Assembly: GCF_007746795.1 (NCBI RefSeq)
Contig: NZ_CP036343.1
Coordinates: 2,097,869-2,161,868 of the forward strand
Source: Gimesia algae
GTDB lineage: Bacteria; Planctomycetota; Planctomycetia; Planctomycetales; Planctomycetaceae
Direction: 5' to 3'
DNA length: 64,000 nucleotides
Part shown: piece after piece, positions 14,303 to 41,880 of the stretch
Layout of the letters: each line of letters begins with the position of its first letter
Numbering within the stretch: the stretch's first letter is position 1
Notes under the pieces: model-generated
Told to the model about the DNA's origin: nothing
Database searches by the model: none
What the model saw: the letters and a program-made list of their open reading frames with translations, nothing else
Made by a program: the position numbers and the translations under genes

Positions 14303-16996
14303 TTAATCCGAATCCAGATTTTTCATCAGCAGGACCGTATCCGTCGAATCCGAATCCTCTTTGATAAAGCCGCGGTTCCGAAATAATTCCAGCATGCGAC
14401 GGTTCTCCGGAGCCGTTTCGGCAACCATGCGTTTCACTCCCCAGGTACGACAAACTTCCAGACAGTAATCGGTCAACATCGAGCCCAGCCCCAGTCCCTG
14501 CCAGTGATCTCCGACCAGCACTGCGTACTCCGCTTCCCGATGATCTGCGTCGGCCACCATGCGTCCCACGCCAATTAACTGTCCGCTGGGATCTTCCACT
14601 CTCTCGGCGACAATCGCAATTTCGCGGTCGTAATCAATAAAACAGAATCGGGTTGCCATATCATGTGTTGTGCTTTGAAAAGTAAACCGGAACCGTGCTC
14701 GAATGGATTCAGGGGAACAGCCTCGTAGAAGTTCATGCCATTTATCCTCGTCCTCGGGTTGAATCGGCCGCAATCGCACCCGGGTACCATCCTTGAGCGT
14801 AATTGTTTTCGTAAATTCTTCCGGATAAGGTCGGATTGCCAGATGCGAATAAGGGCAAGACGAATTCACACTCAGTCCGCGATCAACAACAATCCGTGCG
14901 TCAAGTGCCATCGCACCCTCGGGGGTCACCATCAGAGGATTGATATCCAGTTCCACGATTTCCGGTAAATCCGCAACGAAGTAGGACAGTCGGATTAACA
15001 CCTGGATCAACTGATCCAGGTTCACAGCAGGACGACCACGATAACCATTCAATAAAGGCCAGGAACGCAGCGACTCCAGCGCGTGTCGCGCCAGTCGTTC
15101 ATTCAAGGGAGGCAGTTCCAACGCACGATCCTGATACAATTCGGCAGAGGTTCCCCCTGCCCCGACCAGCAGGACCATTCCAAATACAGGGTCCCGTTTA
15201 ACTCCCAAAATCAGCTCATGCCCTTCCGGCTCGGAAACCATCCTTTGGACAGTCACTCCCTCCGCATTCGCATCCGGTCGTGCTTCTTTCACGCGCTGCA
15301 TGATGCGATTATAGGCTTCACTTATTTCACGATCATCGTACAGATCCAGTTCGACTCCCCCCACATCCGTTTTGTGGGTAATCTGTTCGGAGAATACTTT
15401 GAGTACAACCGGCAGGCCCATTTTTTGTGACAGATCCACAGCTTCTGCGGCACTGCGGGCCAGGACTGTTGGGTTCACCGGGATCCCATAGGCTTCGAGG
15501 AGTGATTTTGAAGTACACTCAGAGAGGATCTCGTGTCCTTCCTGCAACGCGGCGTCAGCCAACTCCCGCAGACGCTGGCGATCCAGCGAATACTGGACTG
15601 GCATCGCCCGCGGAGTTTCATAGAGGAACTCACGATTCCGGGCATAGGTCACCAGATACATAAATGCCCGCACTGCCTGCTCGGGAGTGTTGTAGGTGGG
15701 AATGCCGGCGGCAGTCATTCGTGTTATTCCTTCCTGAACTTTCCCACCTCCCATCCAGGAAGTGAGCACTGGTTTCGATGTTGACTTCGCAGCTTTGATG
15801 ACCACATCGGCGGCTCCTGCCGGATCAGTCATCGCCTGAGGAGACAGTACAACCAGTACCCCATCCACCTGTGAATCAGTGAGTACGATTTCCAGCGCGT
15901 TGCCAAATCGTTCCGGCAGCGCATCTCCCAGAATATCCAGCGGATTCCCATGAGACCAGGCAGGTGGTAATACCGTATTGAGCCGTTCAATGGTTGCTTC
16001 TGAAAGCGTTGCCAAAACCCCATCTCGCTCCAGCAGCGCATCGGTGGCCATGACACCAGGACCGCCGGCATTGGTGACAATCGCCAGTCGTTCGCCCCGT
16101 GGAGGTCGTTGTCGCGCGAGTAATTCGGCACAGTCAAACAGGTCATCGAGTTCAAAAACACGTACGATCCCGGCACGAGCAAATGCCGCTTCATAAACAG
16201 CATCCACGCCTGCCATCGCGCCCGTATGTGATGACGCTGCCTTGGCAGACTGCTGAAAACGCCCCGCTTTGTACGCAATAATCGGTTTGTGTTTAGTAAA
16301 CGCCCGCGCCGCCGACATGAACTGACGTGCTTCGGTAATCGACTCAACATACAGGATGATTGACTTCGTTAGCGGATCCAGCGCAAAGTAGTCGATCAAG
16401 TCAGCGATACCGACGTCCAGCATATTCCCCACGGAGACGAAATGCGAAAAACCAACCTTTTCCTGCAACGCCCAATCCAGGACCGCAGTGCACAGCGCTC
16501 CTGACTGTGAGATGAAGGCAATATTTCCGGTGAGGGGCATGTCTGTGGCAAAACTGGCATTTAGATTGAAGTAGGGAGCCATGATTCCCAGGCAGTTCGG
16601 ACCAATAATTCGCATCCCTGAGAACTGTCTGGCGATACTCAAGACCTGCTGTTCCAGCTGGCTGCCTGCGGCACCTGTTTCACGAAAACCGGCCGACAGA
16701 ATCACAATCCCCCGGATTCCTGCAGTCCCACACTGCTGTATCACTTCGGGAATCGTTTGTGCTGGAGTACAGATCACAGCCAGATCGACGGGTTCAGGCA
16801 GTTCCAACACAGATTGATAACAGGGAGACTCGCCGAACCGGGTATGCCGGGGATTGACAGGATAGATTTCTCCGGCAAATCCGCCTGTCATCAGGTTCTG
16901 AAATACAGTCTGTCCGACACTCAGTGAACGTTGACTGGCTCCCACGACGGCAATCCGACGGGGACGAAATATCTTATCAAGGTTCCGAATGGGCAT
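14303..16996 (-). CDS. acyl-CoA synthetase (ADP-forming)-GNAT fusion, Pat-type protein acetyltransferase
   Basis: An 897-residue protein. A CoA-binding Rossmann domain (1-125), succinyl-CoA-ligase-like domains (about 140-460) and an ATP-grasp subunit (about 485-700) are followed by a GNAT acetyltransferase domain (about 725-895, with VGDHWQGLGLGSML as acetyl-CoA loop). This is the layout of Pat/YfiQ enzymes that acetylate acetyl-CoA synthetase and other proteins. The synthetase module keeps SHTGAMAG with His at position 257, where active ADP-forming acetyl-CoA synthetases carry the phospho-histidine. Classical enterobacterial Pat has lost this residue, so this one may still make acetyl-CoA and ATP. 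It is last in an operon behind a deacetylase gene. Confidence 0.92.
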   Translation of the reverse strand: MPIRNLDKIFRPRRIAVVGASQRSLSVGQTVFQNLMTGGFAGEIYPVNPRHTRFGESPCYQSVLELPEPVDLAVICTPAQTIPEVIQQCGTAGIRGIVILSAGFRETGAAGSQLEQQVLSIARQFSGMRIIGPNCLGIMAPYFNLNASFATDMPLTGNIAFISQSGALCTAVLDWALQEKVGFSHFVSVGNMLDVGIADLIDYFALDPLTKSIILYVESITEARQFMSAARAFTKHKPIIAYKAGRFQQSAKAASSHTGAMAGVDAVYEAAFARAGIVRVFELDDLFDCAELLARQRPPRGERLAIVTNAGGPGVMATDALLERDGVLATLSEATIERLNTVLPPAWSHGNPLDILGDALPERFGNALEIVLTDSQVDGVLVVLSPQAMTDPAGAADVVIKAAKSTSKPVLTSWMGGGKVQEGITRMTAAGIPTYNTPEQAVRAFMYLVTYARNREFLYETPRAMPVQYSLDRQRLRELADAALQEGHEILSECTSKSLLEAYGIPVNPTVLARSAAEAVDLSQKMGLPVVLKVFSEQITHKTDVGGVELDLYDDREISEAYNRIMQRVKEARPDANAEGVTVQRMVSEPEGHELILGVKRDPVFGMVLLVGAGGTSAELYQDRALELPPLNERLARHALESLRSWPLLNGYRGRPAVNLDQLIQVLIRLSYFVADLPEIVELDINPLMVTPEGAMALDARIVVDRGLSVNSSCPYSHLAIRPYPEEFTKTITLKDGTRVRLRPIQPEDEDKWHELLRGCSPESIRARFRFTFQSTTHDMATRFCFIDYDREIAIVAERVEDPSGQLIGVGRMVADADHREAEYAVLVGDHWQGLGLGSMLTDYCLEVCRTWGVKRMVAETAPENRRMLELFRNRGFIKEDSDSTDTVLLMKNLDSD

Positions 16997-17048
16997 GGAA
17001 AATTATCTCTGCTGTTTTCTAATCTACCTGAACTGCAATTGTTAATAT

Positions 17049-17981
17049 TCAGGCAGATGCCATTTCCAGTAAATGATGTTCAATACTTTCTGCCAGCGCG
17101 CCGGGATTGTATCCCCCTTCCAGAACACTCACGACACGGCCATGGGCGTGAATGTCTGCGATCTCGAGGACGACCCGGGTCAGTCTGGCATAATCTTCAC
17201 TCTCCAGACCCAACGATCCGATCGGGTCGTCTTTATGAGCATCGAAGCCGGCACTGATCAGCACGAGTTGGGGTCTGATACGCGCAGCCAGTTTTTCAAC
17301 GCCCGCTGTGAACAACTCAATATATTGTTCCCGGGACGTGCCAGAGTCGACCGGTATGTTCATGGTTGTCCCCAATCCTTTCCCGGCACCTGTTTCAACA
17401 GCAGTTCCCGTATTCTGGTAAAAGGACGAACGATGAATCGACAGGAATCCGACCTGACCATCTTCCCAGAAGATTTCCTGCGTGCCATCTCCGTGATGCA
17501 CATCCCAGTCAATAATCAGAACCCGGTTCAACCCGAGCTCCTCAATCGCCAGACGCGCACCGACGGCCACGCTGTTAAACAGACAAAATCCTAACGCCGA
17601 TTCAGATGCCGCATGATGTCCGGGTGGTCGTACCAGGCAGAAGGCCCGCTCTGCTTTACCCTTTACGATCTGCTCCACTGCATCACAGGCAGCCCCGACT
17701 GCCATTCGCGCCACGCCATAAGACTCAGGGCACACAACAGTATCTTCTGAGATATGCCCACCACCCTGTGCACAGAACTCTTTCACAAAACGAATGTACT
17801 GCCGCGTATGTACACGTTCCAGTACGGCATCTGAAACTTCAACCCACGACCGCTGCCGACAATGGCCGTGCATGGCAATCTGACTGGCACGCCTCATTGC
17901 TGGCATAATACGGGGGGCGTTTTCCGGAAGATCTCCTGTTTCATGTTTCAGAAACACAGGGTCCGAGTAGAGAATGGTCAT
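17049..17981 (-). CDS. AcuC-like histone-deacetylase-family protein deacetylase
   Basis: A 310-residue class I/II zinc deacetylase fold. The visible active-site elements are RPPGHHAASE (the paired histidines), DWDVHHGDG (Asp and His zinc ligands), and SAGFDAHKDDP (third ligand region). The family removes acetyl groups from lysines or polyamines. It lies 52 bp before the Pat-type acetyltransferase on the same strand, mirroring the AcuA/AcuC pairing that controls acetyl-CoA synthetase in Bacillus, so the two probably form a reversible acetylation switch. No signal peptide, so cytoplasmic. Confidence 0.93.
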   Translation of the reverse strand: MTILYSDPVFLKHETGDLPENAPRIMPAMRRASQIAMHGHCRQRSWVEVSDAVLERVHTRQYIRFVKEFCAQGGGHISEDTVVCPESYGVARMAVGAACDAVEQIVKGKAERAFCLVRPPGHHAASESALGFCLFNSVAVGARLAIEELGLNRVLIIDWDVHHGDGTQEIFWEDGQVGFLSIHRSSFYQNTGTAVETGAGKGLGTTMNIPVDSGTSREQYIELFTAGVEKLAARIRPQLVLISAGFDAHKDDPIGSLGLESEDYARLTRVVLEIADIHAHGRVVSVLEGGYNPGALAESIEHHLLEMASA

Positions 17982-18076: not shown

Positions 18077-18574
18077 TCATGATGACGAGTCGGGAGAGGA
18101 TTTTTCAAACGCTTCGCGGACATGTTGGATTTCCTCATTTTCATTAATCCGCAGTTCAGCCAACAATTCCTGCAACTCCTGTAAGGCTTCATTCCAGTTT
18201 TGAAACGGAGGCTCTGACTGCTTTAAACGTGCACTGAAATCGTCGATCCGCGTCAGAAATTCTTTATGCTTTTCTCGAAAATCCGGGACCATAATACAGA
18301 AGCCGGGCGATTCATCCATGACCGGTTTAAAATACCCCTCCTGCTCCTCATCACGGAAATGCTTGGAGAGCAGATCCCGTAAACCTTCCATGCGGGTTCC
18401 CATTTCACCATATTTGGGTAAACCACGTTCATCCAGTTCTCTCCACCAGTCATTCAGTTCCTTAATGTGCACCAGTATCTGTTCATGACCATCCAGAAGA
18501 TACCGCAAATGCTCGTGTGAATTTTTTTTTGTATCCTCAACACTCTCTGGCTTCCTTCGATCTCGATGTTCCAT
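18077..18574 (-). CDS. hemerythrin-like (HHE) domain protein
   Basis: A 165-residue all-helical protein. Candidate iron ligands are spaced as in HHE four-helix bundles: H20/H22 in NSHEHLRYLLDGHEQ, HFRDEE in the middle, and REKHKEFL later. The family binds a di-iron centre and can sense or carry O2, NO or peroxide. It is 23 bp after PEP synthase and upstream of the deacetylase on the same strand, so an oxygen- or NO-related role in the operon is likely. The charged N- and C-termini are variable and uninformative. Confidence 0.85.
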   Translation of the reverse strand: MEHRDRRKPESVEDTKKNSHEHLRYLLDGHEQILVHIKELNDWWRELDERGLPKYGEMGTRMEGLRDLLSKHFRDEEQEGYFKPVMDESPGFCIMVPDFREKHKEFLTRIDDFSARLKQSEPPFQNWNEALQELQELLAELRINENEEIQHVREAFEKSSPDSSS

Positions 18575-18597
18575 ATCAAACTGTCTCTTTCTATGTC

Positions 18598-21018
18598 TTA
18601 AACAGATTTACATGATGCCAGGTCTGATTCTACTTCCGCGATACGCGTTACCGTTTTGATAACGGCGTCTGGATTCAGTGAGATACTGTCGATCCCCTGC
18701 TTCACCAGAAATTCCGCGATTTCGGGGTAATCACTGGGAGCCTGGCCACAAATACCAATCTTTTTCCCCGCGGCTTTCACGCGCTGAATGGCACTCGCGA
18801 GCGACTCCATCACGGCCGGATCCCGTTCATCAAAAATCGACGCGACGACTTCGGAATCACGGTCAACGCCGAGTGTCAACTGAGTCAGATCATTAGAACC
18901 GATCGAAAATCCATCGAAGATTTCAGCGAATGCTTCCGCCTGAATGACATTACTGGGAATTTCACACATGATATAAATTTCCAGCCCGTCTTTCCCCCTG
19001 TGTAAACCATGCCGGGCCATTTCTTCCAGTACTTTTCTGCCTTCCGCTACGGTACGACAGAAGGGAATCATCAGTTTCATATTCGTCAGTCCCATCGTTT
19101 CACGCACCTTGCGCATCGCCTGACACTCAAGCGCAAATGCGTCCCGGTAACGGGGATGATAATAACGCGATGCCCCTCGGAAACCGATCATCGGATTCTC
19201 TTCGTCGGGCTCGAATTGAGCACCGCCGATCAGGTTGGCATATTCATTCGTCTTAAAGTCACTCATCCGCACGATTACTTCACGTGGATAAAACGCAGCA
19301 GCAATCATACCGACCCCTTGCGCCAGTGTGTCCACAAAAAATGCCGGTTTATCTGTGTAGCCGGGAGTCAGTCGATCGATTTCCGACTTTAGAATCGGAT
19401 CTTTTAACTGGTTATATTCCAGCAATGCCATCGGATGGATTCGAATGAATGAGTTGATAATGAATTCCATTCGCGCCAGTCCCACGCCATCACTGGGAAG
19501 CAGGGAAAGCCGAAATGCTTCGTTTGGATTCCCTACGATCATTTTCACGCTGGTCCTGGTTTCCGGTAAGCGATCCAGGTTGACTTCCTGAATTTCGTAA
19601 TCCAGTTGTCCGTCATACACATAGCCAGTATCGCCTTCGGCACAGCAGACAGTTACCTGTTGACCTGACAGGATAGCAGTGGTGGCTGTTTCTGCGCCCA
19701 CAATTGCCGGTACCCCCAGTTCCCGGCTGATTATGGCCGCATGACAGGTCCGCCCCCCGCGATTGGTAATGATGGCAGATGCGATTTTCATCACCGGTTC
19801 CCAGTCCGGATCGGTGCGGTCTGTGACCAGCACATCACCCGGTTGCACTTCATCCAGATTTTTCGCACTTTCGATGACCCGCGCGATTCCATCGCCGATG
19901 CGTTCTCCTACACTGTGCCCCGAAACCAGCACACGCCCCCGTTTTTTCAGATGATACGTCTTCAGAGTCTGTGACTGTGTATTTCCATGAATGGTTTCCG
20001 GTCGTGCCTGCACGATAAACAGTTCGTCTGTTTTACCATCCTTGGCCCATTCAATATCCATGGGACAGTAGCGCCCCTGCACCGACGAGTAATGTTCTTC
20101 AATTCGGGTCGCCCAGCGGCTGAGCGTGAGAATCTCTTCATCAGTAATCGCAAACCGTTTCCTGTCGGTCGGATCAACGGGAACGTTGCGCGTCATCTTG
20201 CCGCCGCCCGCATCGTAGATCAGTTTGAACTCTTTGGAACCCAGCGTTTTTTTCAAAATCGGTTTGAACCCCTCCATTAACGTCGGCTTGAAGACATAAA
20301 ACTCATCCGGGTTCACACTCCCCTGAACGATATTTTCTCCCAGTCCGTAAGCAGCATTGATCAGCACAGCATCTTTAAAGCCGGTTTCCGTATCAATGGA
20401 AAACATGACACCTGAGGCTGCCAGATCCGAACGCACCATGCGCTGAATTCCAATGGAGAGGGCGATGTCGAAATGATCGAACCCCTTTTCTGTCCGATAG
20501 GAGATTGCCCGATCTGTAAACAACGAAGCAAAACAGCGACGGCAGGTTTCCAGCAAAGTCGCAGGCCCGCGTACATTCAGGTACGATTCCTGTTGCCCCG
20601 CGAAACTGGCATCCGGCAGATCTTCAGCCGTCGCACTGCTGCGGACAGCGACATCGATTCCTCCGGGCAACGCTTCACTCAGTTTCTCATACGCCTGTAG
20701 AATTTCTGTTTGAAATGAAGTTGGGATCTCAGCAGAGAGAATCGCATGCCTGACTTCCAGGCCGTGCTGCTGCAGATTGGAAATATCAGCAGTGTCCAGA
20801 TCCTGCAGGATCTCCCTGATCTGTTGATCCAGGCCGGTTTCTGCCAGAAAATACCGGTAGGCAGCTGCCGTTGTGGCAAAACCGTTGGGGACAGCTATCC
20901 CCTCTGAATTTAACTGGCAGTACATTTCCCCCAGTGAAGCGTTCTTACCTCCCACCGCAGGGACGTCTGTAATACCGATTTCATCAAACCACAGAATCAG
21001 CGGTTCTTCTAACACCAT
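18598..21018 (-). CDS. ppsA: phosphoenolpyruvate synthase (pyruvate, water dikinase)
   Basis: An 806-residue enzyme converting pyruvate, ATP and water to PEP, AMP and phosphate. The start MVLEEPLILWFDEIG is preferred (GGGAG just upstream) over an ATG 29 codons earlier. Domain order is normal: an N-terminal ATP-grasp domain (VGGKNASLGEM, then VRSSATAEDLPDASFAGQQ), the phospho-histidine swivel domain (GGRTCHAAIISRELG), and a C-terminal PEP/pyruvate TIM barrel ending with SNDLTQLTLGVDRD and GICGQAPSDYPE. It heads the operon with hemerythrin, deacetylase and acetyltransferase and is divergent from the Na+-ATPase operon. Its length matches the family. Confidence 0.95.
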   Translation of the reverse strand: MVLEEPLILWFDEIGITDVPAVGGKNASLGEMYCQLNSEGIAVPNGFATTAAAYRYFLAETGLDQQIREILQDLDTADISNLQQHGLEVRHAILSAEIPTSFQTEILQAYEKLSEALPGGIDVAVRSSATAEDLPDASFAGQQESYLNVRGPATLLETCRRCFASLFTDRAISYRTEKGFDHFDIALSIGIQRMVRSDLAASGVMFSIDTETGFKDAVLINAAYGLGENIVQGSVNPDEFYVFKPTLMEGFKPILKKTLGSKEFKLIYDAGGGKMTRNVPVDPTDRKRFAITDEEILTLSRWATRIEEHYSSVQGRYCPMDIEWAKDGKTDELFIVQARPETIHGNTQSQTLKTYHLKKRGRVLVSGHSVGERIGDGIARVIESAKNLDEVQPGDVLVTDRTDPDWEPVMKIASAIITNRGGRTCHAAIISRELGVPAIVGAETATTAILSGQQVTVCCAEGDTGYVYDGQLDYEIQEVNLDRLPETRTSVKMIVGNPNEAFRLSLLPSDGVGLARMEFIINSFIRIHPMALLEYNQLKDPILKSEIDRLTPGYTDKPAFFVDTLAQGVGMIAAAFYPREVIVRMSDFKTNEYANLIGGAQFEPDEENPMIGFRGASRYYHPRYRDAFALECQAMRKVRETMGLTNMKLMIPFCRTVAEGRKVLEEMARHGLHRGKDGLEIYIMCEIPSNVIQAEAFAEIFDGFSIGSNDLTQLTLGVDRDSEVVASIFDERDPAVMESLASAIQRVKAAGKKIGICGQAPSDYPEIAEFLVKQGIDSISLNPDAVIKTVTRIAEVESDLASCKSV

Positions 21019-23173
<2,155 letters not shown>

Positions 23174-23181
<8 letters not shown>

Positions 23182-23530
23182 GAATCAGTCCGATCACGAG
23201 AACGGATTCGACAATCACGAATTCGAGGGGGATCACCTGCACCTGCATGAACAATCGCATATTGAAAAGCGGATCGCCTCACAGCAAGCACGAAAATTGA
23301 AAGCACAACGTGAAAAACATCATACAATCTGGTTTGGGTTCGGGATGTTCGGACTGATTGGCTGGTCCGTCACCGTCCCGGCTGTACTGGGAGTGATGCT
23401 GGGGATGTGGATCGATACCCGCTGGCCTGGTCAGTATTCCTGGACTTTGATGCTGATGATGGGAGGAGTCGCATTGGGATGCTTAAATGCCTGGAAATGG
23501 ATTCATCAAGAAGGAAATATTAAAAAATGA
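23174..23530 (+). CDS. atpQ: N-ATPase accessory membrane protein AtpQ (AtpI-like)
   Basis: A 118-residue protein starting MSENQSDHENG, overlapping atpC by 8 bases. The longer frame back to 22931 lies inside atpC and is not used. The N-terminal 45 residues are hydrophilic and rich in His, Glu and Asp (HEFEGDHLHLHEQSH). Two membrane helices follow (about 55-77 and 87-107), the first with VPAVLGVMLGMWIDTRWP as in AtpI-type assembly factors. The position between epsilon and AtpR is diagnostic of N-ATPase operons, where it is thought to help assemble the c-ring. The His-rich tail could bind metal. Confidence 0.88.
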
Positions 23531-23844
23531 GTTTTGCACTGCTGTTACAACTGTCTGCGAGTCTGACATTTGGCCTGATTCTGGGTGCACTGTTTTTTGG
23601 TGGGCTCTGGTTGACCATTCGCAATTTGCAGAAAGTCTCTCATCCAGCCTTATTATTTCTGGCTTCAGCCCTGACCAGAACCATCCTGGCGATTTCCGGT
23701 TTCTGGTTCATCGGCGTCTGGCTTGATGAATCAGCACGCTGGCAACGCCTGACGGTTTGCCTGGCCGGTTTCATTCTCGCCCGGATGATTTGCACACGCA
23801 TGATCAGAACAGATCAACCGACTTTCTCAGGAAAATCCGTCTAA
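23527..23844 (+). CDS. atpR: N-ATPase membrane subunit AtpR
   Basis: A 105-residue membrane protein with three predicted helices (about 5-29, 40-65 and 70-90). The family is found only in N-ATPase operons, always between AtpQ and subunit a. Conserved-looking arginines sit in or beside helices (ALTRTIL, ILARMICTRMIR), which have been proposed to interact with the c-subunit carboxylate. Overlaps atpQ by 4 bases. Confidence 0.88.
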   Translation: MSFALLLQLSASLTFGLILGALFFGGLWLTIRNLQKVSHPALLFLASALTRTILAISGFWFIGVWLDESARWQRLTVCLAGFILARMICTRMIRTDQPTFSGKSV

Positions 23845-24552: not shown

Positions 24553-24563
24553 AGGAACAGTCT

Positions 24564-24842: not shown

Positions 24843-24872
24843 TCTTACTGACAGATTCAACAGGAAAACTGA

Positions 24873-25670: not shown

Positions 25671-25703
25671 TATTGTAAGTCAAAGACCACTCAGGCAATA
25701 CCT

Positions 25704-27248: not shown

Positions 27249-27252
27249 GCTG

Positions 27253-29795: not shown

Positions 29796-29833
29796 CGTAC
29801 TCCGCATTCACTTGGAACAATTAATTTAACTCT

Positions 29834-33440: not shown

Positions 33441-33456
33441 TTTCCGTTCCGTGCTC

Positions 33457-34146
33457 TCAACGATTGCCCGCGGGTTCATGGTATGCTGCCAGTTGAAGTT
33501 GATGTTGCTCTTCCAGAAAATCACACCATTCCTGAATTCCACTTCCTGTCAGAGAACAACAGGCAAAAACCTGCAGCGCAGATTGAATCCTCTGTGCATC
33601 TGCGGTCACCGCTTCCACAGAAAAAGGAACGTGTGGCAATAAATCCAGTTTGGTGATCAGCATGGCCTGGCTGGTGCGGAACATTTTGGGATATTTTCCC
33701 GGCTTATCGTCCCCTTCTGTCGTGCTGATAAGAACGACGCGCAGGTGTTCTGCCAGATCATGCGAAGCGGGACAGACCAGATTTCCCACATTCTCGATAA
33801 ACAGAAAATCGACTGCAGGGTCCCCCAGCGCTGTCAGACCCCGCTGCACCAGCGGCAGTTCCAGATGACAGGCGCCCCCCGTCGTCAGTTGCGCGACCGG
33901 AACCAGAGGGGCCAGCCGCTGCGCATCGCGGTCGGTTTCCAGATCACCCACCAGAACCGCCATTGACCGGCGACCGGCAAAGTGCCGCGCTGTCTCTTCC
34001 AGTAAACTTGTTTTTCCCGATCCCGGAGAGGACAGCAGATTCACCACCAGAGTGCCACGCCGCCCCAGACGTACGCGTTCCACTTCCGCATCGGCTTTTT
34101 GCTCCGCTTGCACATCACGTTTGACGATGATCGTTTGCTGACTCAT
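33457..34146 (-). CDS. hypB: hydrogenase nickel-insertion GTPase HypB
   Basis: A 229-residue GTPase that works with HypA to insert nickel. The P-loop NLLSSPGSGKTSLLE, the switch region VGDLETDRDA with the CHLE-type metal site (GGACHLELPL), and TKLDLL are all present. There is no His-rich N-terminal nickel store; the front only has a short charged stretch. Overlaps hypA by 4 bases. Confidence 0.96.
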   Translation of the reverse strand: MSQQTIIVKRDVQAEQKADAEVERVRLGRRGTLVVNLLSSPGSGKTSLLEETARHFAGRRSMAVLVGDLETDRDAQRLAPLVPVAQLTTGGACHLELPLVQRGLTALGDPAVDFLFIENVGNLVCPASHDLAEHLRVVLISTTEGDDKPGKYPKMFRTSQAMLITKLDLLPHVPFSVEAVTADAQRIQSALQVFACCSLTGSGIQEWCDFLEEQHQLQLAAYHEPAGNR

Positions 34147-34514
34147 GCCGACACTCCTTCATGTGAATCTTTTGGTTCCAGTGTGATACTGATCAGTTGC
34201 AGATCATCCCCCTGAATGACGTCAACGCTTCCTGACTGACATTCAGGACAGTGAAACTGAAAATCGAGGACTTCAAACTCATGTTGACAGTGAGCACAAA
34301 CGGCAGTGACAGGAACCAGATCCAGTTTCAACTGACATTCCTCAGAGAAGACAGCCGGGACCATCTCCTCAAACGCGGCTGCAAATAACAGCGGCTCAAC
34401 CCCCGACAGATCGCCCGCCTGCACGCAGATTTCAGAAACACAACCGCCCCCCTGTTCAGCAACGATTTGTCTGACCTGTTTTAACAGATTCTGAACCAGC
34501 GACCGTTCATGCAT
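34143..34514 (-). CDS. hypA: hydrogenase nickel metallochaperone HypA
   Basis: A 123-residue protein starting MHERSLVQ; the N-terminal His2-Glu3 is the nickel site, so the upstream extension to 34691 is rejected. The zinc domain has CAHCQHEFEV and CPECQSG. Delivers nickel to HypB or the large subunit. It overlaps the protease gene by 8 bases. Confidence 0.95.
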   Translation of the reverse strand: MHERSLVQNLLKQVRQIVAEQGGGCVSEICVQAGDLSGVEPLLFAAAFEEMVPAVFSEECQLKLDLVPVTAVCAHCQHEFEVLDFQFHCPECQSGSVDVIQGDDLQLISITLEPKDSHEGVSA

Positions 34515-34989
34515 GTTCAATCTCCCCTTGCCTGACAGACGGGCTGAGATCCTCACAGAGGGATTCGACAGCAGCGACAACTCCTGCCTGCACTGCTTCT
34601 GACATAGTCTCTCCCGAATGATTCGACTGCAGTTCGACTCCACAGATCCGAACATGCTGCGGGAGTCTTCCCAACTGCGCTGCCAGCGCAAGCACGCCCG
34701 TTAAAGACATCTGATGCGTCCCTGACCAGTGAATCTCATCCAGTTGCCCGCAAGGCCACTCCCATTGATGAACACTTCCCGCTTCACCGGCTCCCTGGCA
34801 GGCATCACAAATCAGCAGGTCCATCGCAGGCTCGATCCAGTCCAGTAAATCAGCCGGTGTCCGAGCCAGTTTCACACGCACGTAATGGAACCTGCGCTGT
34901 TCAATCTGTCTGGCCATCTCCCAGCCTGCCTGATCGTCACCATGCGGACTGCCAATTCCAGCAATCATGATCTGTGACCCGTTTTTCAT
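34507..34989 (-). CDS. hydrogenase maturation endopeptidase (HycI/HoxW type)
   Basis: A 160-residue protease starting MKNGSQIMIAGIGSPHGDDQAGW, where the Asp in GDD is a nickel-recognition residue of the M52 family. GGAAG lies before the ATG; the longer frame to 35055 overlaps the large-subunit gene and is not used. VRICGVELQ closes the core sheet. It removes the short C-terminal peptide of the large subunit after nickel insertion. Encoded directly downstream of that subunit. Confidence 0.9.
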   Translation of the reverse strand: MKNGSQIMIAGIGSPHGDDQAGWEMARQIEQRRFHYVRVKLARTPADLLDWIEPAMDLLICDACQGAGEAGSVHQWEWPCGQLDEIHWSGTHQMSLTGVLALAAQLGRLPQHVRICGVELQSNHSGETMSEAVQAGVVAAVESLCEDLSPSVRQGEIEHA

Positions 34990-35012
34990 TCCCACTTCCT
35001 TCCTGCTGTCTC

Positions 35013-36305
35013 TCAGTGTCGGTCGATTGTGACCTTGAGAAAATGAGTGGAACAACTGATACAGGGATCATAGGCTCTCACCAGATTTTCACATTTCCGC
35101 GCCAGTTCTGTTTCTTCATTACCCATTGACTCTGACACCACATGTTTGAGGTCCACTTCAATCTGTGCCTGATTCTGAGACGTCGGCGGGACAATACAGG
35201 CTTCGACGATCTTGCCTTGATCATCGATCTCATAGCGATGATACAGCGTTCCCCGGGGTGCTTCGGTCGCAGACTTACCGGTTCCCGCCTGCGGCGTATA
35301 CGTTTCGCGTGGTTTACCGGCAAGATGTTGATCCCGCAGGATCGATAACCCTTCTTCATACGCGTGGACGATTTCTAGCCCGCGCGCAATGATCGCCTTG
35401 TGAGGATTCCGACAGACCGGTTCCCATCCGATTTCATCTGCCAGTTTCCGTGCCTGGGGAAACAGTTGATCACGATTCAGGTTGATACGCGATAACGGCC
35501 CGAGCAGATAAGGGCGCCCCGTTGACTTACGAAACGCCTGCAGCGCGGTGGAGTGGGGTACCTGCCGCTCTTCAAATTCCTCTTCGTACTGTTCTACTTC
35601 AATCACGTCTCCCAGGCTGGATTTCATCACTCCCTCATTCATGGGATATTCATCCGGGTGAGACAGCGATACAAATTCGCAATCTGATACCATTTCCGGA
35701 AAATCGAAACCAGCCACCCAGCGTGTAGTCTCCATCGCGGCATTCAGGCCCCATTCAAAATCCGGTATCAGTTTCTGAAATTCATTCCGACGGGGGATAC
35801 GATAGAAACCACCCACGCAGACATTCACCGGATGAATGGCCCTCCCCCCCAGCAGGTCGACTAGCTGGTTGCCATGTTTTTTCAATCGCAGTCCACGATT
35901 GACTGCTTCGGGAAACTGCTTCGCCATCTCCAGCCCGCTCTCAAAGCCCAGAAAATCAGGGGCATGCAGTAAATGCATATGTAAACCATGGCTTTCAATC
36001 CATTCACCACAATAGAGCAGACGACGCAGTCGGCGAATCTCTGGGGATACGGTCACTTCCAATGCGGACTCCAGGGCATGCACACTACTCATCTGGTATG
36101 CCACCGGACAGATTCCACAGATACGGGCCGTGATATCCGGTGCGTCTTCAAGCGGTCGTCCCCGCAATAACGCTTCAAACAGACGAGGCGGTTCATAAAT
36201 TTCCAGGCGGACTTCTTCAATCGTTTCACCACTCATGCGGATGAACAATCCCCCTTCCCCTTCCACCCGGGTCAATGTTTCCACTTTGATCTTGCGGTCA
36301 CCCAT
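35013..36305 (-). CDS. group 3b [NiFe] hydrogenase large (alpha) subunit
   Basis: A 430-residue catalytic subunit. The N-terminal nickel motif is RICGICPVAYQ (Cys63, Cys66) and the C-terminal one is DPCISCSTH (Cys415, Cys418, His421). A nine-residue tail, FLKVTIDRH, follows His421 and is the expected protease cut-off piece. Short length and the HydB-G-D-A gene order match cytoplasmic NAD(P)-linked group 3b enzymes (sulfhydrogenase type, as in Pyrococcus). These interconvert H2 with NAD(P)H. There is no membrane anchor gene and no Tat signal in the small subunit. Confidence 0.95.
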   Translation of the reverse strand: MGDRKIKVETLTRVEGEGGLFIRMSGETIEEVRLEIYEPPRLFEALLRGRPLEDAPDITARICGICPVAYQMSSVHALESALEVTVSPEIRRLRRLLYCGEWIESHGLHMHLLHAPDFLGFESGLEMAKQFPEAVNRGLRLKKHGNQLVDLLGGRAIHPVNVCVGGFYRIPRRNEFQKLIPDFEWGLNAAMETTRWVAGFDFPEMVSDCEFVSLSHPDEYPMNEGVMKSSLGDVIEVEQYEEEFEERQVPHSTALQAFRKSTGRPYLLGPLSRINLNRDQLFPQARKLADEIGWEPVCRNPHKAIIARGLEIVHAYEEGLSILRDQHLAGKPRETYTPQAGTGKSATEAPRGTLYHRYEIDDQGKIVEACIVPPTSQNQAQIEVDLKHVVSESMGNEETELARKCENLVRAYDPCISCSTHFLKVTIDRH

Positions 36306-37093
36306 CAGTCTGGCTCCCCGTTTCGATCCTGTAAACGCCGACTTTCCTCGCGAAATGCGGGCGCATTGTTATTGAAATTCTGCAGGCTGTTTGAAATTTC
36401 CTGCCTGGATGCCCCGTCCTGCTCCATCTGTGAAGTCAGGCTCACCAGATTGATCTGCGAGGCTGGTCCAAAACAGCCGTAACAACCCCGGTTATAACTC
36501 GGGCAGAGTGCATTACACCCCGACTGCGTTACCGGTCCCAGGCAGGCAATTCCCTGTGCCACCGTCACACACACCGTTCCGCGGCGTTTACAATCCAGGC
36601 AGACACTGTGTCCGGGGGTGCGAGGAGTCCGTCCTGCTAACAGTGACTGAATGACTTCGATCAGCTGATATTGATTGATCGGGCAGCCTCGCAATTCGAA
36701 GTCGACGGCCACATGGTCTGCTATAGGCGTTGAGTGTTCTAACACCTCGATATATCCAGGAGTGGCATACACTGACCGCATGAATTCTGCAGAATCAGCC
36801 CCGTTTCTCAATGCCTGAATTCCACCAGAGGTCGCACAGGCACCGATGGTCATCAGAAAGCGGGAGTCTCTGCGAATCTGCTGGATCCGGGTGGCATCGT
36901 GGGGTGTCGTAATAGATCCCTCAATCAGCGAAATATCATACGGGCCTGCTTCCATGCGACTCGTGGCCTCGGGAAAATATACGATCTCTAAGGCATCCGC
37001 GACGGACAACAGCTGATCCTCGGCATCCAGCAGAGAAAGCTGACAACCATCACAGGAAGCAAATTTGAAAACAGCCAGTCTGGGTTTTCCCAC
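36305..37093 (-). CDS. group 3b [NiFe] hydrogenase small (delta) subunit
   Basis: A 262-residue electron-transfer subunit without a Tat signal, hence cytoplasmic. Proximal-cluster ligands are [13 protein letters not shown] (Cys14, Cys17), GACATSGG and GCPINQYQ. Further cysteines in [35 protein letters not shown] fit two more [4Fe-4S] clusters. One base is shared with the large-subunit start, so translation is coupled. Confidence 0.95.
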
Positions 37094-37095
37094 GC

Positions 37096-37962
37096 TCAGA
37101 GTCCTTCCACTTTTAAATAGGGTGAAATCTGATCATAGCGAAAGACCGGCCCATCCTTGCAGATGAATTCGGGTCCCAGCTGACAGTGACCACACAAACC
37201 AACCGCGCACTGCATATTTCGTTCGGTTGAAACCCAGATCTGCGCGCCGGTCATTCCCCGCTGGAGCGCAGCACGGGCGGTAAAACGCATCATCAAATCC
37301 GGGCCACAGATCAACAGAACCGTCTGCGCGGGATCGAATCCGGTAAGCCGTTCCAGTAACTGGGGCACAACTCCCACATTCCCGCGCCAACCGGGGCTCG
37401 ATCGGTCGACGGTTTCTCTGATCTCCAGCCCTTCTGCTCGCCAGCGGTCATATTCCCGCGTATAAACCCGCATCTCAGGTGTACGTGCCCCGTATAATAA
37501 ATGCAGACTCCCATACTCGTCTCTCTGCGCCAGCAGTTGATAAATCAACGGACGCAAGGGAGGCAGGCCGATTCCGCCCGCCACCAGAATTACATTCTTT
37601 CCCCGACAGGCCTCGCGCGGCCAACTGGTACCAAAGGGGCCGCGCAGTCCCAGGGTATCTCCCACTTTCAACGCGGCGATACTGCGCGTCACATTGCCCG
37701 CAACCCGTATCGTATGAATCAGGGTCTCACAGTCAGCAGGATCACCGCTCATGGAAATTGCCGACTCTCCGGCACCGGGAAGATACAGCATATTGAACTG
37801 ACCTGGTTCAAAACGATATGACTGCGCAGCCGCTGCATCGATCAGTGCCAGCTGGTAAGTGGTAACCCCGCTGACTTCGGCTGTGATCTCACGAATGACA
37901 GCCGTTTTCGCGACCCAGAAGCTGGCTGGTTTCTCGGGCTGTTTTCTGACGGTCGAATTCAT
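37096..37962 (-). CDS. hydrogenase gamma subunit (FAD/NAD(P)-binding diaphorase)
   Basis: A 288-residue ferredoxin-reductase-like subunit related to PyrK and sulfhydrogenase gamma. It has an N-terminal FAD barrel, GPFGTSWP, then [20 protein letters not shown] for the nucleotide, [12 protein letters not shown], and a C-terminal [2Fe-2S] cysteine set in [23 protein letters not shown]. It passes electrons between NAD(P)H and the iron-sulfur chain. Cofactor choice (NAD or NADP) cannot be fixed from sequence alone. Confidence 0.93.
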
Positions 37963-39083
37963 GACTGCGATTCCCGTATCGCCTTCACTTCCTGCGTCAG
38001 GTCAATTCCGACAGGACACCAGGTAATACATCTTCCACAACCGACGCACCCTGAAGTGCCAAACTGATCGATCCAGGTCGCCAGTTTATGTGTTAACCAC
38101 TGGCGATAACGATTGCGAATGCTGTTGCGGACCAGTCCCCCGTTCATGTAACTGAAATCCAGGTTAAAACAGGAGTCCCACTCCCGCTGCCGTTCCACAT
38201 GATCTCCGGTCAGATCACTGACTTCTTCGACCGAACTGCAGAAACAGGTCGGACAGACCATCGTGCAATTCGTGCAGGACAAACAACGCTCTGCCACATC
38301 ATCCCACTGGGAATGCTCCAGGTTGGACATGAGCAGGTCTTTAATGTCCGTCGTGTCAAATCGTCGTTCAATCTGGTCGACTGCCTGCTGTCGCGCCGTA
38401 TTCGCCTGCAGATCCTGTTCAGGTGAAACGTCTACCGTCTTCAGTTCCTGCAGTATCTCTGTACCGGCGGCAGTGGCGACCTCAACCAGAAAGCCGTCCG
38501 GCAATTCGGTGAGCGCCAGATCAAAGCCTGCTTTGCAGCGAGGTCCCGTCTGCATGGAAGTACAAAAACAGGTTGACGCTGCCTGCGTACAATTCACCGC
38601 AATAATCAGTGCTTGACTGCGACGCTCGTCATAAATCGAATCGACATAAGGCCCTCCCGTGAAAACTCGATCCTGTATTTTCATTGCAGCCAGTTCACAG
38701 GCACGAACACCCAGAAATGCATAGCGGGGCGTTTCTTCTTCCGCTTCCTCGAACTGCCAGCCTGCCTCCGTGCGGTCAGCTGTCGCCAGCGTGCTGACCG
38801 GTGGAAACAGCTGCTTCTTCCAGGAACTCGGACCCACAACATAACCAAAGAGTGCCTCATCATCGCGTTTAACCAGTCGGTATTTGCCTGGCTCCTGGTG
38901 ATCGGTCCAGCCGCGTGGTAAATCATCAATCGATGAGAGTTGATCATAGACGATGGCTTCCTGGTCAATTGTAGGACCAATCACTTGGTAACCACGGGAA
39001 ATCAGCACATCAAAGAGTCTGGCAAATTCATCCAGCGCTAAAAAACAGGTTTGTGGATTGCTCGACTGCACAGAATCACTCAC
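37959..39083 (-). CDS. hydrogenase beta subunit (4Fe-4S dicluster protein)
   Basis: A 374-residue iron-sulfur protein of the sulfhydrogenase beta / anaerobic sulfite reductase A type. Two C-terminal clusters are visible: CLSCTNCTMVCPTCFC (about residues 260-275) and GCVGCGRCITWCPVGIDL (about 345-362). A middle motif, YAFLGVRACELAAMKIQDRVF, is family-typical, and CTQAASTCFC adds further cysteines. It overlaps the gamma subunit by 4 bases and the regulator-like cNMP gene by 8. Confidence 0.93.
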   Translation of the reverse strand: MSDSVQSSNPQTCFLALDEFARLFDVLISRGYQVIGPTIDQEAIVYDQLSSIDDLPRGWTDHQEPGKYRLVKRDDEALFGYVVGPSSWKKQLFPPVSTLATADRTEAGWQFEEAEEETPRYAFLGVRACELAAMKIQDRVFTGGPYVDSIYDERRSQALIIAVNCTQAASTCFCTSMQTGPRCKAGFDLALTELPDGFLVEVATAAGTEILQELKTVDVSPEQDLQANTARQQAVDQIERRFDTTDIKDLLMSNLEHSQWDDVAERCLSCTNCTMVCPTCFCSSVEEVSDLTGDHVERQREWDSCFNLDFSYMNGGLVRNSIRNRYRQWLTHKLATWIDQFGTSGCVGCGRCITWCPVGIDLTQEVKAIRESQS

Positions 39084-39579
39084 TTGCGTCTCCCTGCTTC
39101 AGAGTATGTGCTTCATCAGTAACAGCATACATGTCGAGTACCTGCAGGCGACTGGCAACCAACCGCTGAGATAACGCCAGAGCCACCCGTCGCATAATCT
39201 GGTAACCGATATCATGATCCTGCTCGCAGACGACCGCCAGGGCATCTGCATCAATGGCAATCAAACGAGTCTCTTCCACTGCGACGACGGTCGCTGTCAT
39301 CTCTCCCTGTTTGAGAATGGACGACCAGCCAACCAGATCGCCTTCTTCCAATGTCAAAACGGGCAAACAGCCACGGGCGGAAATGGTCATGCATATTTCT
39401 ACGCGACCACTGAGAATGATATAAAGATCCCGATGCTCGGTTCCTTCCGTAAAGATCGTCGCGTTGCGGGGATAATCCTGAAATCGGGAGATGGCTGCTA
39501 ACTTCTTCAAATCCTCTACCGACAACCCGGAAGTAAAGCGGAGCTGTTGCAGATGTTCCTGGAGCTGTTGAATCTCCAT
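39076..39579 (-). CDS. cyclic-nucleotide-binding (Crp-like sensor) domain protein
   Basis: A 167-residue protein with one cNMP-binding beta-roll: IFTEGTEHRDLYIILSGRVEICM, then LEEGDLVGWSSILKQGEMTATVVAVEETRLIAID, and a C-terminal helix. There is no helix-turn-helix, so it cannot act as a normal Crp/FNR regulator. The conserved cAMP-binding Arg position is not obvious, so the ligand is uncertain. It heads the hydrogenase operon and overlaps the beta subunit gene, a linkage seen with other group 3b clusters, suggesting it senses a signal and acts on the enzyme or on electron flow. Confidence 0.88.
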   Translation of the reverse strand: MEIQQLQEHLQQLRFTSGLSVEDLKKLAAISRFQDYPRNATIFTEGTEHRDLYIILSGRVEICMTISARGCLPVLTLEEGDLVGWSSILKQGEMTATVVAVEETRLIAIDADALAVVCEQDHDIGYQIMRRVALALSQRLVASRLQVLDMYAVTDEAHTLKQGDASE

Positions 39580-39935
39580 CGCAGCCTCTCAGTCAGCATG
39601 TAATACAGTGGACAGGACATTTCGATTCTAGCCTGCCTGTTCGGAATCGTCCAGCGACCTGGATTTTGGATCCACTCCTTTATTCCTGTTTCAGACTGAC
39701 ATCAGGGATTCCCCTATCTAAAAATACGAAATCATCCCATGCTGGATCACCCTGCTCTCCTGATTACGATTCAGGCACAGGCTTTTAGAATGATCCACGC
39801 AGTCAAGATTTGAGATCATGATTCTGTTTTATGCACCATATTGGGTTCATGAAATGGAATCGGTCAAATCGTAATTCCTGCAGACCTTCGACCGTGAATC
39901 AGTTACATTTGAATTAAATCAACAAGGAGCGTTCG
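39580..39935. other. intergenic region between hydrogenase operon and baeRF gene
   Basis: A 356-bp gap between divergent genes with no reading frame of note. It should contain both promoters. A possible hydrogenase promoter is listed at 39625-39653. An 8-bp palindrome, ATCATGAT, occurs at about 39816. I saw no clean FNR or Crp consensus half-site pair. Confidence 0.5.
39625..39653 (-). promoter_or_regulatory. possible sigma70-type promoter of the hydrogenase operon
   Basis: Read on the minus strand, TGGACG (39653-39648), a 17-bp spacer and TAGAAT (39630-39625) lie about 45 bases before the first gene. The -10 is good and the -35 fair. Position supports it, but a chance match is possible. Confidence 0.35.
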
Positions 39936-41096
39936 ATGAAGACCTTAACACATGATGAGCTCAAATCACTGACGGAATGGGAAAAAGGGCCCTGCGTTTC
40001 CATATATTTACCCCGGCATCAGGCTGTCTCTGAACTGGGAAAAGATTCCATTGAACTGCGAAACAGATTAGATGAAGCGGAAACCTCACTCCAGCAAATG
40101 GGGCTGGGCACTGCGGAAGCTACCCAGTTTCTGAAATCGGCGCGAATGCTGCAGAATGATCCTTCCTTCTGGAAACAGGGAGCGGCTCAGGGACTCTGCC
40201 TGCTGATAGCTCCGGAAATGTTCCAGCAGTACGACTTGCCCTACCAATGTCCCCCCATGCTGTCTGTTGCAGAAACGTTCTATCTCAGTCCGTTATTCTA
40301 TAAAGCATATGAAGATGATCGATTTGATCTGCTGGCAATCTGCCCGAATTCGGTCAGGATGATCCGTCATCAAAACGGTGATTTCACAGAGGTAGAACTT
40401 CCTGAAAATATCCCCGCTCATCTGGATGATTTTGCGGGGGGAATCGAACTTGAAGAATCATTACAGTACCATACGACTTCTTCCGGAAGCCAGGGTGGAG
40501 AAATCGCCGGTGTTCAACATGGACATGGTGTGACGAAAGAACAACATGAAAAAGTCCTGACGGATTACTATCAGTTTCTCGCCCGACAACTCGATCAGTA
40601 CCTGGAAGACAATGGGCCTCCTCTGGTACTTGTCTGTGCGGAAAAACAGCAGAGCCTGTTTCGCAAACACTTCCACGGGAGTCAACTTCTGCCAGACGGA
40701 GTCACCACTTCCCCGGACCAGCTCTCTGCGAGAGAACTGGTAGATCTTGCATTACCAGTAGCGGAATCCTGCTTTCAGACATCCCTGCACAAAGCGCAAG
40801 AGAAATTTCAGAAGCATATGGGAACGTCTCGTATTTCGCATCAACTTGAAGAAATCCTGCAGGCAGCAGCACAGGGACGCGTCGAGACTCTGTTTACTCC
40901 CATTGGATCAGAACTCTATGGTCATCTGCCTCAGGATGGAGAATTACTGCAAACACACGCCCAACAGGAATCTGACGACATTGCGCTCCTGAACTGGGCA
41001 ATCCGGAACACATACCGACATGGTGGGACTCCTTACGTCATTCAGCCGGATGACATGCCCGACCAACACTCTGTACTCGCCAGTTTTCGCTGGTAA
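39936..41096 (+). CDS. baeRF-family (eRF1-like) protein
   Basis: A 386-residue cytoplasmic protein of the bacterial/archaeal eRF1-like group: CVSIYLPRHQA at the start, a middle FDLLAICPNSVRMIRHQNG strand region, QFLARQLDQYLEDNGPPLVLVCAEKQQSLFR, and a C-terminal GRVETLFTPIGSELYG with HGGTPYVI. These are the three eRF1/pelota-like domain blocks, without the GGQ peptide-release loop. AGGAG precedes the ATG. The biochemical role of baeRF proteins is not established; ribosome-related rescue or hibernation has been proposed. It is divergent from the hydrogenase operon. Confidence 0.82.
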   Translation: MKTLTHDELKSLTEWEKGPCVSIYLPRHQAVSELGKDSIELRNRLDEAETSLQQMGLGTAEATQFLKSARMLQNDPSFWKQGAAQGLCLLIAPEMFQQYDLPYQCPPMLSVAETFYLSPLFYKAYEDDRFDLLAICPNSVRMIRHQNGDFTEVELPENIPAHLDDFAGGIELEESLQYHTTSSGSQGGEIAGVQHGHGVTKEQHEKVLTDYYQFLARQLDQYLEDNGPPLVLVCAEKQQSLFRKHFHGSQLLPDGVTTSPDQLSARELVDLALPVAESCFQTSLHKAQEKFQKHMGTSRISHQLEEILQAAAQGRVETLFTPIGSELYGHLPQDGELLQTHAQQESDDIALLNWAIRNTYRHGGTPYVIQPDDMPDQHSVLASFRW

Positions 41097-41115
41097 GCAG
41101 GGTCTGGGGAGAATG

Positions 41116-41155
41116 AAAGGTGTCAACGACGAATGGTACTGCCGCTGATACCTTT
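41116..41155. terminator. bidirectional terminator between baeRF and sirtuin genes
   Basis: AAAGGTGTCA (41116-41125) pairs with TGATACCTTT (41146-41155) with one mismatch, with T-runs on the outer side of each arm. It lies in the 61-bp gap between convergent genes, so it can stop both. The AAAGGTGTCA arm resembles the REP-like family at 1294 and 2455. Confidence 0.65.
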
Positions 41156-41157
41156 TT

Positions 41158-41880
41158 TCATTCTTCCAGCCAGCGATTCACAATTTGAGGCACGTGTTCC
41201 ACCGCGGTCCCTTTGATCCAGTGGAATGCGACAGGCTCCGATTCCAGGTCCGGGCTTACGATCAGTTTTTCCGCGCTGGCTTGTGCTTTTGTCAGCAGGC
41301 CGGCAGCCGGGTAGACCGAAAGCGAGGTGCCGACCACGAGCACTTTCCCGGCACTACTCACATGTCGAGCCGCGACGTCAAAGTTGTGAATGGCTTCTCC
41401 AAACCAGACGATGTGCGGCCGTAACTGGGCTCCCTGTTCGCAGAGATCACCCAGCTGGATTTCTTTTCCGCCCATTTCATAGAGGAGAGACGCATCGGCA
41501 GTACTGCGGGCTTTCACCAGTTCCCCATGCACGTGAATCACATTCGTGGAACCTCCCCGTTCATGCAGGTCGTCCACGTTCTGTGTAATCACGACCACCT
41601 CGTAACGACTCTCCAGTTCCGCCAGCGCCTGATGCGCCGCATTGGGTAAAGCCGCGACCGCTTTCGTTCTCCGTTCGTTATAGAAATCCAGCACCAGCTG
41701 CGGATTCGCTTCCCACGCCTGGGGCGAAGCCACTTCGGTAATCTCATACTGCTCCCACAGCCCGCCCATATCGCGAAACGTCGGTAACCCGCTCTCGGCA
41801 CTGATGCCGGCCCCCGTCAGCACGACGACTTTATTGTGATCAATGGGGTCAGACATCTGTGGTCTCAATTTCACTTTCAT
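41158..41880 (-). CDS. class III sirtuin, NAD-dependent lysine deacylase
   Basis: A 240-residue Sir2 protein; an ATG at 41856 is an alternative start. It shows LTGAGISAESGLPTFRD, TQNVDDLHERGG, VHVHGE-type catalytic His (VIHVHGELVKAR), WFGEAI and VVGTSLSVYPA. The substrate pocket has FYNERR, matching the YxxR signature of class III (SIRT5/CobB-like) enzymes that remove succinyl and malonyl as well as acetyl groups. The four structural zinc cysteines are missing, only one Cys remaining in that region, as in some Bacteroidetes-type members. It could complement the AcuC-like deacetylase in the same island. Confidence 0.92.
   Translation of the reverse strand: MKVKLRPQMSDPIDHNKVVVLTGAGISAESGLPTFRDMGGLWEQYEITEVASPQAWEANPQLVLDFYNERRTKAVAALPNAAHQALAELESRYEVVVITQNVDDLHERGGSTNVIHVHGELVKARSTADASLLYEMGGKEIQLGDLCEQGAQLRPHIVWFGEAIHNFDVAARHVSSAGKVLVVGTSLSVYPAAGLLTKAQASAEKLIVSPDLESEPVAFHWIKGTAVEHVPQIVNRWLEE

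Follow-up and report, generated by a model that had tools for sequence, protein, structure and literature searches.

Why do genes for phosphoenolpyruvate (PEP) synthase, hemerythrin, a rotary N-ATPase, a CBS-domain protein, a group 3b [NiFe] hydrogenase and a bacterial archaeo-eukaryotic release-factor-like (baeRF) protein sit side by side in Gimesia algae? They lie between positions 14303 and 41880 of a 64,000-nucleotide window, the whole stretch of DNA analysed here (contig NZ_CP036343.1, positions 2,097,869 to 2,161,868), which is part of a 7.93 Mb genome that we label G000; comparison genomes carry G-numbers and fetched loci L-numbers. An initial annotation had taken these genes, together with protein-acylation enzymes, for one survival module for low oxygen or carbon limitation. 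That idea is partly supported: the hydrogenase, PEP synthase, hemerythrin, N-ATPase, CBS and baeRF genes travel together and have a candidate O2-sensing regulator, whereas the acylation arm is removed here, and the analysis adds a candidate regulator, a site and more target genes. The island is real and genus-wide and, with a wider regulon, is probably controlled by O2. The reading we favour, with moderate confidence and from sequence comparison, is that the core genes form one block of a predicted low-oxygen regulon.

Gene order and content of the island

Conservation was examined in 150 genomes of the family, 11 of them from Gimesia, and gene order was compared in eight genus genomes, G000 and seven congeners with 40-kb surroundings. 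Hemerythrin and PEP synthase, the divergent N-ATPase–CBS operon, and the block of hyp, hydrogenase and cyclic-nucleotide-binding (cNMP) genes keep the same order and orientation in all seven congeners, with baeRF next in five. The gene-order check proposed in the initial annotation thus finds blocks that travel together, and the core, its order kept in every congener, is no chance neighbourhood. A match to the hydrogenase large subunit (hydA, E ≤ 0.001) occurs in 72 of the 150 family genomes, including all 11 from the genus. Each of those 11 has AtpR no more than 12 kb from hydA, and AtpR is present in 34 family genomes overall. The N-ATPase is absent from 13 family neighbourhoods outside the genus, among which G089 has two distant ATPase matches (28–30% identity); hydA and AtpR matches lie ~6 kb apart on one contig in G016.

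Four transcription blocks surround two divergent promoters (21106–21373 and 39580–39935), and Pfam recovered every gene that had been named, each where it had been placed. Leftwards from the first promoter, on the minus strand, run PEP synthase (18598–21105), hemerythrin (18077–18574), an AcuC-like deacetylase (AcuC/HDAC, 17049–17981) and, as the last gene of this operon, a Pat-type ADP-forming acyl-CoA synthetase fused to a GNAT acetyltransferase (14303–16996). Rightwards runs the N-ATPase operon atpD-C-Q-R-B-E-F-A-G (21374–28140), which ends in a two-CBS protein (28186–28692); comparison with a relative makes ATG 21374 the probable atpD start rather than the TTG at 21284 in the list of open reading frames (ORFs). 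The second promoter serves, leftwards on the minus strand, the cNMP-binding protein that heads the hydrogenase operon (39076–39579), the large, small, NAD(P)/FAD and Fe-S hydrogenase subunits (35013–39083), and hypE, hypD, hypC, hypF, hypB, hypA and a HycI-type maturation protease (28719–35055). Rightwards lies baeRF (39936–41096, plus strand), followed by a sirtuin (SIR2; 41158–41880, minus strand) that is probably outside the unit.

The hydrogenase has the four-subunit, cytosolic, NAD(P)-linked set, and its large subunit is nearest, among solved structures, to P. furiosus sulfhydrogenase 1 alpha (E 5e-71), with a cytosolic NiFe hydrogenase next. This bears out the earlier label and is consistent with group 3b, a class assigned here from Pfam domains and nearest structure rather than from a tree against the hydrogenase class database. 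A large-subunit search of genome contigs returned three named loci, the closest from a Gimesia sp. metagenome-assembled genome and 94% identical.

N-ATPase operons were reportedly treated by Dibrova et al. in 2010. As in known operons of this kind, atpD and atpC lead and AtpQ- and AtpR-type genes (PF12966 for AtpR) are present, so the ATPase is a genuine N-ATPase; unlike them, the Gimesia operon is linked to a hydrogenase and PEP synthase. The accessible part of PMC5376962 describes the same leading atpD and atpC, and reports that the B. pseudomallei c17 ring was measured as H+-specific despite a Na+ prediction. With that ring in mind, and with a second carboxylate in the Gimesia c subunit (GEG...MVESTAIY, a two-carboxylate type read by eye), the ion in the earlier name "Na+-type ATPase" is uncertain.

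A shared palindrome and a candidate O2-sensing regulator

A palindrome, TRGGGRAWTYCCCYA, stands upstream of the hydrogenase operon in all seven congeners. G000 has a weaker form, TAGGGGAATCCCTGA (39702–39716, minus strand), two mismatches from consensus; its centre lies 130 bp from the hydrogenase operon and 227 bp from baeRF, upstream of both. Scored against TRGGGRAATYCCCYA, the hydrogenase site is found in 5, 7 and 8 of the eight genomes at up to one, two and three mismatches; shuffled sequences give means of 0, 0.03 and 0.53 of 8. The motif was first derived from genus promoters, and its independent tests are its enrichment across whole genomes, its presence before kinase and CBS genes, and its presence before the regulator gene in another genus. 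At up to two mismatches the G000 genome holds 71 and 88 matches on its two strands, compared with 34 and 26 for the reversed pattern. Exact copies of TRGGGRAWTYCCCYA number 22 in the 11 genus genomes (control 0) and 18 in the 139 other family genomes (control 2). At least one exact site occurs in eight of the 11 genus genomes, and none in G097, G136 or G146.

Most of the exact genus sites, 17 of 22, precede a histidine kinase, hydrogenase or CBS gene. Eight stand before a receiver–PAS–HisKA_3 kinase (at G141:468844 the distance is 1.2 kb and two short ORFs intervene), three before the hydrogenase operon, and six before a CBS gene that has HSP20, the response regulator described below or an unnamed short ORF as its other neighbour. 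Three more precede acetolactate-decarboxylase-like (AALD-like) genes, in G000 only; one lies in a decayed copy of the island and one inside a coding sequence. Outside the genus, two of the 17 exact sites examined (of 18) lie 125–135 bp before the regulator gene introduced below (G064, G105), and a one-mismatch palindrome precedes it in G116; these three genomes belong to one other genus (g16). TGGCGGAAACCGCCA, upstream of the G345 kinase, and TGGTGGATTCCACCA, upstream of the G265 baeRF, are similarly built palindromes in family f2 and are no more than suggestive.

Several further observations attach to these sites. In G038 and G141 a CsrA gene (L253:788–1000, L255:2375–2590), next to an unnamed 117-residue protein and HSP20, diverges from the kinase across an exact palindrome. 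Three near-identical PF03306 genes in G000 carry an exact palindrome ~240 bp upstream (L098:450–1172, L101:6524–7234, L102:6280–7002). These AALD-like genes were rejected as a conserved target: the sites are confined to the near-identical copies in G000, and the palindrome is missing from a fourth copy and from the orthologues in five of five relatives, which counts against the regulon at these genes. A PDB search with their protein found nothing even at E 1, "acetolactate decarboxylase" being a weak Pfam label. Five identical copies of TAGGGGAATCCCCTG (G000:2491398, 3256423, 3890837, 7208876 and 7649241), two of whose regions were fetched (L107, L108), are suspected to be a repeated element rather than regulator sites.

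The divergent promoter between PEP synthase and atpD contains a conserved sequence, CCCGGT-N8-[A/G]GGGRAAWCCA, whose spacing is fixed in all eight genomes. Its left half, site A (21164–21178), lies 14 bp from the right half in each of them, and site B (21186–21200, plus strand) reads TAGGGAAATCCACCA, one mismatch from the regulator site.

Several points about the sites weigh against a single regulon. By an eye count, the PEP synthase/atpD element departs from the palindrome by one mismatch in G000, two in G136 and three in the other six genomes, and it lies 88 bp from PEP synthase but 181 bp from atpD. Because of these mismatches and this position, the element argues only faintly for control of the N-ATPase. 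A palindrome scan before PEP synthase found none in ten of ten cases, congeners included, and none of 12 hydrogenase genes outside the genus is preceded by one. At 15 of the 17 exact sites examined outside the genus, no regulon-type gene (by query-protein match) lies within 1.5 kb; one of these, in G037, is 3.1 kb from the regulator gene.

The candidate regulator is encoded away from the window in G000, in a cluster of kinase, rhodanese, NarL-type regulator, hemerythrin, HSP20 and CBS genes (genome positions 4325610–4332385). The kinase (4325610–4327049) has a receiver–PAS–HisKA_3(–HATPase) build and no GAF match, and the response regulator (4328533–4329165) joins receiver and GerE domains. 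Counted at E ≤ 1e-45, with at most 20 candidates scored per genome, regulator homologues occur in 69 of the 150 family genomes and in all 11 of the genus. Within Gimesia the gene follows baeRF directly, inside the island, in G097, G119, G126 and G141, and lies 5 kb from hydA beside HSP20 and CBS in G131; with G110, at 22 kb, this places it within 25 kb of hydA in six of the 11 genomes. It is located elsewhere in G000, G136, G038, G076 and G146. Against PDB chains it scores alike with NarL, VraR and DevR, with no special closeness to DevR.

The PAS domain of the kinase best matches FixL (E 8e-22). The FixL heme histidine and the arginine that we take to be R220 (alanine in chain 1y28) are both kept in seven of the 12 proteins compared: the G000 kinase beside the regulator, those of G126, G076 and G062, a multi-PAS protein in L097, and the kinases of G265 and G345. 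In the last two, both from family f2, a kinase of the same class overlaps the regulator gene. With these residues retained, the kinase is a candidate heme-based O2 sensor.

Synteny, conserved and enriched sites, linkage of the regulator and heme-type residues are what the sequences show. We infer the signal, the phosphotransfer, the binding of this site by this regulator, the direction of control and the physiology as follows. On leaving the heme, O2 would free the kinase to phosphorylate the NarL-type regulator, a dimer of which would then bind TRGGGRAWTYCCCYA palindromes before its own kinase gene (autoregulation), before CBS and HSP20 genes and before the hydrogenase operon (39702–39716); binding at the PEP synthase/N-ATPase promoter (21164–21200) is less certain. 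The hydrogenase may dispose of or recover reductant as H2 or NAD(P)H while hemerythrin buffers O2, and other products of the regulon would adjust PEP/pyruvate and ion gradients, protect proteins and, through baeRF, quiet ribosomes. The accessible part of PMC6514570 ties baeRF proteins to ribosome hibernation factors by gene neighbourhood.

Another NarL-type regulator, or another signal such as NO, CO, redox state or starvation, might instead act at the palindromes, the FixL-like kinase being a neighbour and not the sensor. G000 alone yields 62 first-look candidates of the NarL-type regulator family. NO and CO can also serve as ligands of heme PAS domains, which would suit such a signal. The second G000 kinase has tyrosine in place of the heme histidine, in G043 and G130 the kinase next to the regulator has no FixL match, and the G040 kinase matches FixL over a short stretch only. 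Because of the G043 and G130 kinases, our confidence in the O2 reading is slightly lowered. We nevertheless think this alternative unlikely: the regulator sits inside the island in relatives, palindromes lie upstream of it in another genus, and eight of the 22 exact sites in the genus stand before the gene for the kinase itself.

Other PAS proteins and regulator copies were also noted. At L097:1774–4827 a CheB–CheR–PAS fusion lies beside the multi-PAS protein with FixL-type heme residues, ~5 kb from a second regulator. Just left of the island (window 10673–13030) is a Ser/Thr protein kinase with several PAS domains, two of which keep the FixL histidine position and not the arginine. A third regulator match, G141:466021–466530, has three internal stop codons and lies 2.3 kb from an exact palindrome. 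The decayed second copy of the island (G000:4131816–4132445 and 4137000–4177000; L097, L098) holds the second regulator (79% identical), an AcuC–Pat pair, a ferritin-like gene, PAC2, S-adenosylmethionine synthase, hemerythrin, HSP20 and transposase genes, along with a second PEP synthase gene and, divergent from it, an N-terminal fragment of atpD.

Hydrogenase neighbourhoods in other lineages and the acylation genes

Outside the genus, 33 hydrogenase regions of 16–40 kb were compared, 13 from the family and 20 from the phylum; several of the marker queries came from the family regions, which makes the family counts, unlike the phylum counts, partly circular. A cNMP-binding protein accompanies hydA in 12 of the 13 family and 19 of the 20 phylum regions, and in G140, G149, G265, G345 and G192 no more than 20 kb separate PEP synthase from the hydrogenase. 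Near the G140 hydrogenase are a P-type ATPase, HSP20, universal stress proteins (USPs), a zinc-dependent alcohol dehydrogenase (Zn-ADH), CBS, PEP synthase and Pat. G149 has PEP synthase, a GroEL-like gene, a USP, HSP20, baeRF12 and Zn-ADH, and G032 has Pat, USPs and a P-type ATPase. In G265 and G345, PEP synthase, hydrogenase, Zn-ADH, regulator and kinase fall within 40 kb. To these G265 adds CBS, baeRF, a cation P-type ATPase and pyruvate:ferredoxin oxidoreductase (Pfam), and G345 adds an N-ATPase, HSP20 and genes that correspond to the G265 P-type ATPase and oxidoreductase in length and place, by which they were matched rather than by Pfam. USPs were seen only near hydrogenases of other genera, no search for them having been made in Gimesia. 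In G149 a baeRF protein of a different family (L067:4455–4931, family 12/Host_attach) is encoded near the position that baeRF has in the island, a short way ahead of the hydrogenase operon.

These neighbourhoods bear on a simpler account, in which the operons are independent, share no control and have stayed side by side because one genus inherited them that way; the N-ATPase and PEP synthase especially would then be bystanders. The hydrogenase usually stands alone outside Gimesia: 20 of the 33 regions lack any marker gene and only five have three or more, among them two (G140, G149) of the five genomes examined in genus g35, counts that also tell against a common regulon. The N-ATPase, moreover, is unlinked in the closed genomes G040 and G042. 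Yet genes of the same kinds do gather around the hydrogenases of G140, G149 and G032 and around those of G265 and G345, which belong to another family, and both divergent promoters of the island hold conserved sequence. HSP20, CBS, PEP synthase, Pat, Zn-ADH, P-ATPase, baeRF and the regulator were found in none of 18 control regions (20-kb stretches at places of our choosing in nine genomes, shorter than most hydrogenase regions), one of which had a USP. We therefore judge plain synteny to be rather improbable. NtrC-type genes near the hydrogenase (G140, G032, G265, G251) were rejected as evidence, since three of the 18 controls also have one.

The initial annotation had gone further and made protein acylation (AcuC, Pat and the sirtuin) part of the module, tuning acetyl-CoA enzymes. 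Pat and AcuC are indeed operonic with PEP synthase in G000 and G136, a second AcuC–Pat pair lies near the decayed island copy, and Pat is found near the hydrogenase in G140, G032 and G313. However, G000 and G136 are the only two of the eight genus genomes with AcuC–Pat in the island; in the other six the pair is not in it, as judged over ~2 kb beyond hemerythrin. Among the seven congeners only G136 also has the sirtuin there, adjoining baeRF as in G000. Pat is placed elsewhere in the closed genomes G097, G119 and G126, and on a contig other than that of hydA in G131 and G146. At E 1e-150 it was not found in five of 16 genus genomes, one of the five 74% complete, and at 10 of 12 Pat loci, that of the window included, no site with up to two mismatches lies within 1.5 kb. 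Its linkage to the island in two of eight genomes, the placement of Pat elsewhere and the few sites at Pat loci led us to reject acylation as core and to treat AcuC, Pat and the sirtuin as accessory; the full version of the module is, in our estimate, very unlikely.

Relation to known oxygen-responsive systems

How does this island compare with the mycobacterial DosRST (DevRS) system? DosS is a kinase of the HisKA_3 class, and DosS and DosT sense through heme-GAF domains. The DosR box, GGGACTTNNGTCCC, lies upstream of its targets, and the mycobacterial set also holds HSP20, CBS and the baeRF-like protein Rv2629. Gimesia shares the NarL-type regulator, a heme sensor kinase (here predicted) and a G-rich palindrome, and of the DosR-type content it has HSP20, CBS, hydrogenase and baeRF genes with sites or in the island. 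It differs in its FixL-like PAS sensor without a GAF match, in a site (GGGRAWTYCCC) of similar symmetry and other letters, in the added hemerythrin and rotary N-ATPase, and in a regulator equally near NarL, VraR and DevR. A special closeness of the CBS proteins to Rv2626c was not seen, and their identity as HRP1 orthologues is not supported. Because sensor type and site differ, we do not class the island as a dos cluster; on this evidence it would work like one.

Two other systems offer partial parallels. Like FixLJ, the Gimesia kinase has a PAS domain with the heme histidine and arginine of FixL; unlike FixLJ, it has a HisKA_3 core with an N-terminal receiver and a NarL-like partner. NreBC of staphylococci likewise pairs a NarL-type regulator with a HisKA_3 kinase, and its site, TAGGGN4CCCTA, closely resembles the TAGGGN5CCCTA found here; in NreB, however, O2 is sensed through an Fe-S cluster, and the regulon is a different one.

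Likeness in gene content is greatest to clusters of M. smegmatis. The accessible part of PMC2799521 places the low-oxygen clusters msmeg_3926–3955 and 5241–5246 by devR/S, and lists a five-gene [NiFe] hydrogenase, a cation P-type ATPase and PEP synthase as exceptions to the M. tuberculosis Dos set. The first of these clusters shares with Gimesia a [NiFe] hydrogenase, PEP synthase, a cation ATPase and the same beta-gamma-delta-alpha-protease order (PMC2799521, same portion). In the part of PMC8125079 available, the M. smegmatis dos regulon comprises 49 proteins, including USPs and hydrogenases, and DosS carries heme. The mycobacterial dormancy analogy is accordingly better founded than when the initial annotation raised it, the blocks sharing a site type and having a candidate O2-sensing regulator.

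A broader proposal can be made only tentatively, at a little under even confidence: that Planctomycetes have a DosR-like dormancy regulon of their own, in which a FixL-type heme-PAS kinase, a NarL-type regulator and TRGGGRAWTYCCCYA would put a group 3b hydrogenase, PEP synthase and a rotary N-ATPase under O2 control. On this proposal the set of hydrogenase, PEP synthase, cation ATPase, CBS/HSP20 and baeRF would be a recurring cross-phylum survival set, brought together in mycobacteria as well as in several lineages of planctomycetes (Gimesia, family f2 and two g35 genomes), not always with this regulator. A full-text search, with most subscription journals outside its reach, found no literature joining planctomycetes with such a regulon. 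If the proposal is true, these marine bacteria, which are not known to cause harm, would offer a testable planctomycete low-oxygen regulon with a named regulator, a predicted-heme sensor, a binding site and a short target list. The N-ATPase and the group 3b hydrogenase would gain a physiological role, and the mycobacterial dormancy gene set would be a solution reached or shared across phyla.

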